Translations under genes and position numbers: made by a program
Notes under the pieces: generated by a model
What the model was told of the DNA's origin: nothing
Database searches by the model: none
The model's input: the letters and a program-made list of their open reading frames with translations, nothing else
Shown: positions 256 to 3,634 of the stretch, piece after piece
How the letters are laid out: each line of letters begins with the position of its first letter
How positions within the stretch are numbered: position 1 is the stretch's first letter
NCBI GenBank assembly: GCA_030685015.1
Contig: JAUXWS010000081.1
Location: forward strand, 1 to 15,448
From: a bacterium
Lineage (GTDB): Bacteria; CAIWAD01
DNA: 15,448 bases
Direction: 5' to 3'

Positions 256-1625
256 TCAGCCGCCCCGGCCGCTCTCCGCGTTGCGCGCCAGCTGACACAG
301 AAGGCCGCGGAAGACAAGGACGTGCAGGGGCCGGACGGCATGCCAGCAGGCCAGCCCCGCCAGTCCGGAGGGATGGAAGTCGGCACTCTGGCGGATGACG
401 CTGCCGGCGCCGTCGGCCTCCACCTCGAAGTCCAGCCAGGCCCGGCCTGGCACTCTCATCTCGGCGAGCAGCCGCAGACGATGGGGCGGCTCGCACACCT
501 AGACGCGCCAGAAGTCCAACGGATCGCCGGCCCGTAGCGGCCGGCCGATGGGGCGACCGCGGCGCATGCCGACACCTCCGGTGAGCAGGTCCAGCCAGCC
601 ACGCAACCGCCAGAGCAGGTTCCACGAGTACCAGCCGGCCGCTCCACCCAGCCCGGCGATGGGCGCGAAAGCCGCCGCGGGCTGCGTGTCCACATGCCGG
701 CAGCGCTGGTCGACCAAGCGCGTGCCCACCCGCAGGCCGCCGTAGGAGGGAACAGATCCCGACGAACTGACCGCGTCCGACCAGCGGGTCTGGGCGAAGG
801 CCCGCTCCTCGTCGCGCAAGGCGTCGCTGATCGCCTCGGCCGCGCCCCGGGGCCGCGTGTGGAAGAGGGCCGCCGCGGCGGGATCCCGCACGACGGTGGG
901 ATGGCGGATGCTGTCGATGAGCTTGCGGCCGACACGGGCGTAGAGCGGTGTCACCAGTCCCAGCCAGAGGCTGGACAGCCCCGGCGTGAGGACGGGCACG
1001 GGGATCATCCAGCGCCTCAGGCCACGCTGGCGGGTGTATTCGGCCATGAGGGCGCGGTAGGAGAGCACGTCGGCGCCGCCGTTCTCCACGACGCGGCTCT
1101 CCGCCAATTTCAGGTCCACCGCCTCGAGCAGGATCGCCACCAGGTCCTCGATGCCGATGGGCTGCGCCTCGACTTCCACCCAGCGCGGCATGATGAGGAG
1201 GGGCAGCTTCTCGGTCAGCGCACGGATCATCTCGAAGGACAGGCTGCCGGATCCGATGACGATGGAGGCGCGCAGTTCAAGGGTGGGCACGCCGCTTCCG
1301 CGCAGGATGCGGCCTACCTGCTGCCGGCTGCGCAGGTGGGGCGAGAGGTCTTCGCGCTCGTCACCCAGCCCCCCCAGATAGACGATGCCCTCCAGCCCCG
1401 CGCCCCGGGCCGCCGCCGCGAAACGCCGGGCCGACTCCTCCTCCTGCCGCTCGAAGCCGCTCCCGGACCCCATGGCGTGCACGAGAAGACGACCCGGGAG
1501 CATCCGGCCATCGCCCCGGATTGGCCAGCGGTGCCTGCCCCACGGGTGCCCGGATGGCGCGCCAGCGGCCTCGGCGGAAGCGCCGCGGTCTCCGGGCGAC
1601 GACAGCGCGGCGCCGCACCCGTCAG
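256..1625 (-). pseudogene. Degraded SDR-type NAD(P)-binding protein with DUF2867 C-terminus
   Basis: The minus strand from about 1485 down to 501 encodes the recognisable middle of the NAD(P)H-binding/DUF2867 family: 'LVHAMGSGSGF', 'YLGGLGDE', 'LSPHLRSRQQVG', 'ELRASIVIGSGS', 'VPVLTPGLSS' and 'GDPLDFWRV'. Three lesions are visible. (1) An in-frame TAG at 501-499 follows DFWRV, yet the same frame continues to TGA at 258-256 with the family's usual ending ('RLRLLAEMRVPGRAWLDFEV', then 'HPSGLAGLACWHA'). (2) Upstream of ~1485 the homologous text is in another frame ('RRPETAALPPRPLARHPG', 'GAMAGCSRVVF'), implying a one-base loss near 1483-1490. (3) The N-terminal Rossmann TGxxGxxG segment (~30 residues) is absent, because the AraC gene ends where it should be. 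Family members are normally ~480-500 residues. The gene was probably co-transcribed with the regulator upstream. Sequencing error is possible for one lesion but less likely for all three. Confidence 0.8.
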
Positions 1626-2545
1626 CGCGCCGCCGCCTCGCCCAGGCGCCGCACCGGCCTTCCCACGATGTAGCCGCGGTAGCCCAGCGGCTCCAGCTGG
1701 AAACGCGGCGCCGCCTCGTCATCCCAGGCATAGCCCCAGCTTTCGGGCTGGTAGGATTGGATTTGTGCGTCCAGCTCGGCGATCGCCTCCTGGAAGGCGT
1801 CATCGTCGTAGGGCGGCCCCTGGAAGACCATCCACAGGCAGGGCGGCAGCTCGATGAGTTCAAAGCCCTCCGGCACCGGCCCCGGGTAGTCGTGCGCCAC
1901 CTCCACCCCCTGGACGTAGCTCGAAGTGCCCATGGGGCGCAGGCTCCCCGGCAGCCAGAGACCCATCGGCTCATGCAGCGCCTCGGCCACGGACCCCAGC
2001 TGCTCCCAGACCTGGCAGCCCACTTCGTCGCAGTACTCGAAATAGTGCCTGGCCTGCACGCCGCGCTTGAGGATCAGCTTGCGGGCGGGGCGTTCCACCA
2101 CCTGGACGAAGATGGCGGACGCGGGGCGGGATGTTGTCATGGCGGGGCCTCCTTGCACTGGATTCTGGTAGTAGGCGCGCATCCGCTCCGGCATGAACAT
2201 CACCACGGGTGGCCGCTGCCGCTGATAGCTGCGCGGGGACAGGCCGAAGTGCCGTGTGAAGGCGCGCGTGAAGCCTTCATGGGAATCGAAATCGAAGTCG
2301 AAGGCCACATCGATGATGCGCACGGAGGGATCACCCAGGCTGCGGGCGGCGGCGCTGAGCCGGCGCAGGCGCAGGTAGGCGAAGGGCGTGTGGCCTGTCA
2401 TCTCTTTGAAGAGCCGGCTGGCGTGCCAGGGTGAGCAGCCCGCCCGGCGGGCCAGGGCCAACAGCGTGACCGGCCGACCCAGGTTCTCCTCGATGTGGTC
2501 CTGCATGCGGCGGACCACATCGGCCCGCCCTGGCGGAGTCTGCAT
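1622..2545 (-). CDS. AraC-family transcriptional regulator with GyrI-like effector-binding domain
   Basis: The product is 307 residues. An AraC-type double helix-turn-helix occupies roughly residues 8-110: the first HTH is 'LALARRAGCSPWHASRLFK' and the second runs from 'IIDVAFDFDFDSHEGF' to 'FGLSPRSY'. A GyrI-like/AraC effector-binding domain follows at about 146-307 ('HYFEYCDEVGCQVWEQLG', 'FELIELPPCLWMVFQG'). Such proteins are cytoplasmic one-component regulators, often of multidrug or stress genes, whose GyrI domain binds small hydrophobic ligands; the ligand here is unknown. The ATG at 2545 was chosen because GAAGGAG lies five bases upstream and the HTH begins right after it. The frame stays open further upstream through the 11-bp repeat array, but that extension is low-complexity. 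The gene ends at TGA 1624-1622, directly against the degraded SDR gene, which was presumably its operon partner and possible target. Confidence 0.9.
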   Translation of the reverse strand: MQTPPGRADVVRRMQDHIEENLGRPVTLLALARRAGCSPWHASRLFKEMTGHTPFAYLRLRRLSAAARSLGDPSVRIIDVAFDFDFDSHEGFTRAFTRHFGLSPRSYQRQRPPVVMFMPERMRAYYQNPVQGGPAMTTSRPASAIFVQVVERPARKLILKRGVQARHYFEYCDEVGCQVWEQLGSVAEALHEPMGLWLPGSLRPMGTSSYVQGVEVAHDYPGPVPEGFELIELPPCLWMVFQGPPYDDDAFQEAIAELDAQIQSYQPESWGYAWDDEAAPRFQLEPLGYRGYIVGRPVRRLGEAAAR

Positions 2546-2624
2546 GGCGCCTCCTTCGCCCGTCAAGGTGACGAAAGGGCGACCGTTCTTCTTGACCGTG
2601 CTTGCTGACTTCGGGTCGGGGGTC

Positions 2625-2844
2625 GGTGCCAGGCCGGTGCCAGGTCGGTGCCAGGCCGGTGCCAGGTCGGTGCCAGGTCGGTGCCAGGCCGGTGCCAGGC
2701 CGGTGCCAGGCCGGTGCCAGGTCGGTGCCAGGTCGGTGCCAGGTCGGTGCCAGGCCGGTGCCAGGTTGGTGCCAGGTCGGTGCCAGGTTGGTGCCAGGTC
2801 GGTGCCAGGCCGGTGCCAGGCCGGTGCCAGGCCGGTGCCAGGCT
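2625..2844. repeat. Tandem array: 20 x 11 bp GGTGCCAGGYY minisatellite
   Basis: Twenty head-to-tail 11-bp units were counted base by base. The first nine bases (GGTGCCAGG) are identical in all units and only the last two vary. In order the endings are CC, TC, CC, TC, TC, CC, CC, CC, TC, TC, TC, CC, TT, TC, TT, TC, CC, CC, CC, CT. The array lies in the 372-bp space between the AraC start and the end of the P-loop gene, 80-300 bp upstream of the AraC start codon. Because three units equal 33 bp and contain no stop, most frames on both strands are open and give spurious 'PGTGLAPAWHR'-type repeats. Length suggests slippage or unequal crossover; whether it binds a protein is unknown. Confidence 0.95.
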
Positions 2845-2864
2845 CCAGTCCGCCTGCCATGACA

Positions 2865-2894
2865 ACGGCCGGACCCCGCGAGGGATCCGGCCGT
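2865..2894 (-). terminator. Hairpin, probable terminator of the phosphatase-transporter-P-loop operon
   Basis: An inverted repeat of about 12 bp (ACGGCCGGACCC at 2865-2876 against GGGATCCGGCCGT at 2882-2894, one bulged T, loop of about five bases) begins 24 bases after the stop of the P-loop gene. On the minus strand it is followed by TGTCATGG, not by a U-tract, so it is either a weak intrinsic terminator or a 3'-end-protecting hairpin. Confidence 0.55.
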
Positions 2895-2917
2895 CCAATG
2901 TCCAACTCCCGGCGCAC

Positions 2918-3634
2918 TCAGGGCTTGGCAATGCCCCACAAATGCTGCAGGGCGCGCTCCAGCTCCGGACCGAGCAGAGCGGGATCGCCCGTCTTCTCCG
3001 GCATGTTGTCGAAGACCGTGTAGGGGATCTTGTGGTCGCGCACCGTGATGTACCTGGGGTCGGCCGCCTCGATGGCGTCCCAGTCGTTGACCTTGTAGTA
3101 GAAGTCCATCTTGTCGTCGGGCAGGCTGTGGAAGAGGATGGAATCCTCCTGCCCCTTGCGCGCCCGCTTGCGGTTCTTGCGCACCGACTCCTCGTAGGGA
3201 ACCTTGATGTACATCAGGCGGGAACGGCCCAGCAGCTCGTCGGAGAGGTAGCCCAGGGCCTCGCGGAAGCCGTCATCGCCGCCGCGGGCGAACTCGATGA
3301 GCGCCGTGTGCGTCTCATGGTAGCCCGGGTTGTAGGCCAGCTTCTTGGCGTACTCCAGGTTGATCCGCTCCAGGAACATGTTCCAGACGAAGTGCTCGTT
3401 GAAGTAGTACTTCGTGTCGGTGAACTTGCGCGGGCGGCCATGCTTGGAGTAGATGTCGTCGATCTCGAAGCACTCCCAGACGAAGACGAAGTCGTCGATC
3501 TCCTCGAAAGGGCCGATGTGGAAGCGCCGGGCGCGTTCCTCGTCGGAGCACTTCTTGAGGAAGTCGATCACCTCGGACTTGCCCGCCGCCGGGCGGCCGA
3601 TGATGATCAGGTTCTCGAAGGTGTTGGCGGCCAT
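2918..3634 (-). CDS. Uncharacterised P-loop NTPase / kinase-like protein
   Basis: A 238-residue soluble protein with a clear Walker A motif, GRPAAGKS, at residues 13-20 directly after a hydrophobic beta strand (NLIIIG). The rest resembles a nucleotide- or sugar-kinase fold: many acidic/aromatic stretches ('FEEIDDFVFVWECFE'), a hydrophobic strand with basic followers ('LMYIKVPYEESVRKNRKR'), a lid-like Arg/Lys-rich segment, and a conserved-looking end ('IPYTVFDNMPEKTGDP'). I know similar proteins in diverse bacteria only as uncharacterised P-loop proteins; the substrate is unknown. The ATG at 3634 has GAGGAG five bases upstream. It is the last gene of the minus-strand operon, 35 bp after the OPA-type permease, so a role in phosphorylating or sensing the imported compound is an inference from position only. 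Confidence 0.8.
   Translation of the reverse strand: MAANTFENLIIIGRPAAGKSEVIDFLKKCSDEERARRFHIGPFEEIDDFVFVWECFEIDDIYSKHGRPRKFTDTKYYFNEHFVWNMFLERINLEYAKKLAYNPGYHETHTALIEFARGGDDGFREALGYLSDELLGRSRLMYIKVPYEESVRKNRKRARKGQEDSILFHSLPDDKMDFYYKVNDWDAIEAADPRYITVRDHKIPYTVFDNMPEKTGDPALLGPELERALQHLWGIAKP

Follow-up and report, generated by a model that had tools for sequence, protein, structure and literature searches.

A 20-unit, 11-bp array upstream of an AraC-family gene probably belongs to a lineage-specific, REP-like family of dispersed tandem arrays

REPs are short, many-copy intergenic repeats; a genome holds several families, and each of these is linked to a Y1/HUH transposase gene that has members of that family at its flanks (PMC6006769, PMC3116915, PMC2817692). 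Each tnpA_REP has its own REP family, and these transposases (RAYTs) appear not to move together with their repeats as one transposing unit (PMC6006769, a text from which the words "tandem" and "direct repeat" are both absent). In E. coli, TnpA_REP binds, cleaves and rejoins single-stranded REP (PMC8266576). The arrays described here resemble such REPtrons in combining short dispersed intergenic repeats with a flanked Y1/HUH gene, but they consist of 11- or 12-bp head-to-tail direct repeats, up to about 27 in a row, whereas REPs are 20–40-bp palindromes with a GT[AG]G tag. Other described systems share single traits. The REPIN/REP tandem clusters of Pseudomonas fluorescens SBW25 are likewise ordered tandem arrays found in both orientations at several places (PMC3116915), but their modules span tens to more than 100 bp and contain palindromic REPs, whereas here a bare 11-bp unit repeats with no spacer. 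STRR or heptamer arrays of cyanobacteria and Beggiatoaceae (e.g. TAACTGA) also have a short tandem unit at many intergenic loci per genome (PMC4679880); their units are 7 bp, and that study reports no evident mechanism of transfer, while in the present case a transposase clade is bracketed by arrays. The BrickBuilt MITE of Porphyromonas gingivalis is a minisatellite in a mobile element, always intergenic, with about 19 copies per genome and a leader and tail (PMC4596501). Its 23-bp units lie inside inverted-repeat MITE ends; the window array, in contrast, has no terminal inverted repeats.

The window, i.e. the whole 15,448-nt stretch of DNA analysed, comes from a 3.6 Mb genome that is 97% complete (G000). 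Two congeners (G001 and G002) and a member of a sister genus in the same family (G003) were compared with it, and four other genomes of the phylum formed the comparison set. A sequence-only reading had described an expanded 20-unit, 11-bp array upstream of an AraC-type gene, with nine invariant bases and variation limited to two final pyrimidines, and all of this holds (Table 1). TRF returned a period of 11, 20.0 copies, 94% matches and zero indels over 2624–2843, and a literal search of the window found 20 starts of GGTGCCAGG spaced 11 bp apart (first 2625, last 2834). The nine-base core is identical in 20/20 units, which end in CC, TC, TT or CT, and the two-unit pattern gave 19 matches in the window vs 0 in 200 dinucleotide shuffles.

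Table 1. Features of the window and the other family-A arrays of the source genome.
Feature	Location	Strand	Evidence or remark
11-bp tandem array (family A), 20 units of GGTGCCAGG(C/T)(C/T)	2625..2844	+	TRF, literal search, shuffles
AraC-family regulator gene, 307 aa, ATG at 2545	1622..2545	-	PF12833 E=4.7e-22
238-aa gene, P-loop-like N-terminus (GRPAAGKS)	2918..3634	-	G001 ortholog 85% identical
Conserved left flank TCTTGACCGTGCTTGCT	2590..2606	.	G001 counterpart TCTTGACCATGCTTGCT, array begins straight after
Conserved right flank	2862..2894	.	inverted repeat ACGGCCGGA...TCCGGCCGT at 2865-2894; G001 counterpart GACAACGGCCGGCCCCGGGAGGGACCGGCCGT
Family-A array, 7 units	G000 C19		
Family-A array, 8 units	G000 C24		
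Family-A array, 5 units	G000 C76		
Family-A array, 13 units	G000 C87		
Family-A array, at least 3 units	G000 C101		contig end
Family-A arrays, 2 units each	G000 C20, C38, C60		

On the minus strand the order is the 238-aa gene, the inverted repeat, the array, 79 bp and then the AraC gene; the array lies 73 bp behind the stop of the 238-aa gene, for which a Pfam search returned no match. An AGGAGG ribosome site precedes the ATG of the AraC gene. Since the unit yields no stop codon on either strand, all reading frames are open through the array, and a GTG-initiated ORF of 431 aa (1622–2917, minus strand) crosses it. The 307-aa start is the better choice, and a coding role for the array was rejected, the open frames being a mere result of the stop-free unit. 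Automatic gene calls may report a falsely long AraC protein of 431 aa that includes a WHRPGTGLAPA-type repeat.

The sequence-only reading had proposed searching the genome and its relatives for further arrays, and the unit recurs at about nine loci of G000, the window included (0 for a reversed-pattern control). A second 11-bp family, family B (CACCAGGGCRR), occupies eleven G000 loci and is absent from all three relatives compared (G001, G002 and G003). Family-A arrays of G000 have 2 to 20 units and family-B arrays 7 to 27. A 780-kb survey of DNA not picked for family A contained five strong 11-bp arrays, of which two were family A and three family B. All listed G000 arrays of both families lie outside predicted genes, as positioned by a crude codon-model gene call; a weak match at C87:149326, inside a predicted gene, was dropped. 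Two arrays are in divergent gaps, one is in a convergent gap and others are between tandem genes, two of them hugging stop codons at distances of 4 bp (OYE-like gene) and 19 bp (a small gene). Much of what the sequence-only reading would have taken as evidence against itself was found, namely arrays of variable length, both of the same family and of a second one, at divergent, tandem and convergent intergenic sites and directly after stop codons. As separate observations, a family-A array of two units lies about 80 bp from a family-B array in one convergent gap on G000 C20 (L152 2761–2993), this family-B array terminates in CACTGTCCATTTCT, resembling the tails of G001 family-A arrays, and a DnaA-box-like TGTGGATAA, GTGGATAA or TTATCCACA abuts three arrays, at G000 C19 and C60 and G001 C279 (L036 4920–4930, L154 contig start and L083 near 60–90).

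Family A extends to the congeners, with 24 arrays in G001 and about 10 loci in G002; it is intergenic in all three genomes of the genus, and each has its own predominant version of the unit. This is GGTGCCAGGYC in G000 (48/59 units) and RGTGCCAGAGC in G001 (107/141, some units with GGTC), while the 106 units of G002 include 60 of GGTGCCGGTGY and 16 of GGTGCCAGGGT. The 11-bp version was not found in G003, where a 12-bp version, GGTGCCARGGAC, gave 387 two-unit matches. This 12-bp family (e.g. L225 2018–2247) is much larger and has the same GGTGCCAG core. Across about 85,000 GTDB species, the three-unit pattern appeared outside the G001 assembly only in isolated records from unrelated taxa. As most G001 arrays sit at contig ends (21/24 within 30 bp), their assembled lengths are lower bounds. 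The longest GGTGCC-unit array seen in the genus is a 27-unit GGTGCCRGTGY array on the reverse strand of G002 C113 (L164 2380–2676). Some arrays also have shared ends: six in G001 adjoin a tail, TTTCTGGCGCCAGCAGAAAGGTGG / TTTCTGGCGCCARCAGAAAGGTGGAAAACA or a close variant, and several in G002 turn around or finish at a hairpin, GGTGCCAGGAGCGCTCCTGGCACC. In the DNA searched, whose G001 part had been chosen for arrays, the G001 tail TTTCTGGCGCCARCAGAAAGGTGGAAAACA turned up only next to arrays. A literature search on GGTGCCTGACACC-type palindromes found nothing relevant.

The window site has a counterpart in G001, split over contigs C237 (AraC ortholog, 70% identity) and C243 (ortholog of the upstream gene, 85%). 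Both contigs terminate in the array, with the matching flanks TCTTGACC[GA]TGCTTGCT and GACAACGGCCGG, and together their ends hold at least 12 units; unit number differs among loci, and in this ortholog the array is cut by the contig ends. We rejected an assembly artefact because a second, independent assembly has an array at this position too. The G001 units are mostly of the AGAGC type, a type found in 0/20 window units (Fisher test 1.7e-7, the units inside one array not being independent of one another). Selection on all nine bases of the core, suggested by the sequence-only reading, finds no support in the relatives: only GTGCCAG is kept at this site, where most units end in AGC. From this sequence comparison, the window array appears to be an old insertion that predates the split of the source species from G001. 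A second site, at the end of the OYE gene, is common to both species (G000 C24, G001 C125). Other sites differ: G000 C59 has no array at the site orthologous to that of the G001 C226 array, and G001 C80 lacks the family-B array of G000 C87. Exact insertion ends could not be mapped from these orthologous empty sites because the intergenic DNA is too diverged. The AraC ortholog on G001 C237 (7833–8679) is split over two frames; either the gene has decayed or the sequence, with its coverage of about 5x, contains an error.

Y1_Tnp genes number five in G000, with 21 matches over the four genomes of the family, and some are associated with arrays. The RAYT of G000 C100 has family-B arrays on both sides in one orientation (8.5 and 17 units, positions 1–94 and 911–1098), that of G002 C281 has 11/22-bp CCGGGGCAAGC-type arrays on both sides, and on G002 C83 a GGTGCCRGTGY array begins right after the RAYT stop codon, on one side. 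The C83 unit is also dispersed at G002 C113 and C254; the 27-unit C113 array is distant from its apparent cognate RAYT on C83. These three RAYTs form one clade (support 91/98), with 41–44% identity to the first of them, and the HUH motif (H60-x-H62) and Y120 are invariant in their alignment. The RAYT of G003 C59, which lies beside a 12-bp GGTGCCAGGGAC array, falls outside this clade, and a weak GACTGTCCGCA array stands by a RAYT at a contig end on G000 C6. Array-linked transposase genes matched PF01797 (E=7e-10 and 5e-7); against the NCBIfam model REP_Tyr_transpos (cut-off 80), the G000 C100 protein scored 59 bits, below the cut-off, and the G003 C59 protein 85 bits, above it. For a 640-bp gene placed at random, the chance of a strong array within 1.2 kb is 1.2%, and a strong array is near 3/11 RAYTs of the genus, giving a binomial probability of 3e-4, or 0.015 at fourfold array density, for a pattern that had been seen before the statistic was calculated. 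The single RAYT–array neighbour in G003 could be chance, as the arrays of that genome are many. Transposase genes flanked by repeat copies were thus found for related families; no RAYT bracketed by the exact window unit GGTGCCAGGYC was found in G000, and the family-A link to a RAYT depends on the relatives (GGTGCCRGTGY in G002, the 12-bp unit in G003). It is plausible that family-A cases are missing from the data through arrays breaking contigs, given the 21/24 G001 arrays close to a contig end. A different RAYT, on G000 C19, is flanked on both sides by the palindrome GGTGTCCGACC-nnn-GGTCGGACACC (L034 1313–1339 and 2137–2161) and looks like a conventional REPtron.

Of the traits of REPs, dispersal of copies in intergenic DNA is present here. 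The palindromic or hairpin structure is not: family B folds no better than shuffles (z of +2.0 and +0.8) and the window unit modestly better (-2.1 and -1.2), and a REP or hairpin nature of the unit itself was rejected on this folding. The only hairpins seen were those that end arrays in G002 and those in the G001 tails. GTAG and GTGG are both absent from the predominant G000 unit, unit junction included. The array system may work like a REP system; we do not class it as REP, because the structure of its unit is un-REP-like.

We consider it somewhat probable (roughly 0.6) that the window array is a RAYT-free member of a lineage-specific, REP-like dispersed family of short tandem arrays, with any effect on the AraC gene incidental or acquired later. 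By analogy with the action proposed for TnpA_REP on REP, we infer that the repeat may be mobilised by a RAYT: an enzyme of the three-gene clade would recognise it in single-stranded DNA and seed new intergenic sites with it, after which the seeded array would grow or shrink by slippage or recombination (or strand transfer) and its units would be homogenised within each genome. Slippage is an established cause of length change in bacterial minisatellites, and an account by slippage alone would have separate duplications of a common, short, GC-rich word arise at many intergenic sites and then drift, with no transposase. Such an account fits unit numbers that vary from 2 to 27 and an exact G000 family-A unit that is without a cognate RAYT, but it is unlikely, as one unit stands at many unrelated loci per genome yet in a different version in each relative, RAYT genes have one and the same unit on either flank, and independent slippage does not predict shared non-array parts such as the conserved tails beside six G001 arrays. 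Alternatively, the arrays may have come first and been favoured as insertion targets by RAYT or IS200-like genes, so that the association would reflect target choice and not array formation. At G000 C100 and G002 C281 a RAYT could indeed have entered a pre-existing single-orientation array; however, each of the three RAYTs in the clade is linked to arrays of a different unit, which is better matched by one cognate repeat per transposase, and the apparent failure of RAYTs to transpose together with their repeats (PMC6006769) also makes target choice a rather improbable explanation.

The sequence-only reading had instead pointed to a period close to one helical turn, with units facing nearly one side of the helix, as suited to cooperative protein binding or DNA bending, and to promoter spacing that would change with copy number. 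Taken as a regulatory module, the array would recruit the AraC-type regulator or another DNA-binding protein cooperatively, and copy number would tune the promoter. The upstream position agrees with this, as does the retention of the array at the same place in G001 even though the AraC proteins are only 70% identical. Yet arrays of the same family also follow stop codons or occupy a convergent gap, G002 retains arrays with no AraC-gene ortholog detectable there, and the argument from the helical turn is weakened by the 12-bp period that the core has in the sister genus. A search of positions 2500–2960 for sigma-70-like promoters was negative, although the promoters of this organism may not follow that consensus. 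Overall we regard a regulatory binding array as very unlikely. A possible regulatory effect on the AraC gene is without locus-specific support, and the window locus is not marked out from the other arrays, though its conserved position in two species leaves a local role possible.

Returning to the RAYT-free, REP-like family that we favour, a bolder form of it, which we hold only tentatively, is that the arrays and their transposases represent a new kind of REPtron, in which a RAYT clade has a non-palindromic 11-bp direct-repeat array as its cognate and the HUH enzyme spreads, and perhaps lengthens, arrays by cleaving single-stranded DNA one unit at a time and transferring the strands. If true, this would account for a period that is fixed, for the dispersal, for hairpins at array ends and for the presence of one family per transposase. 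MAG contigs of this lineage break at arrays, which leads to underestimates of array length and of the number of bracketed transposases. The present case also cautions against taking an array for regulatory because it precedes a regulator. How dispersed short tandem arrays arise in bacteria is largely unexplained, and the TAACTGA study (PMC4679880) reports no evident mechanism; the arrays described here are tied to specific transposase genes, which makes it a testable question whether an HUH RAYT acts on a non-palindromic tandem substrate.
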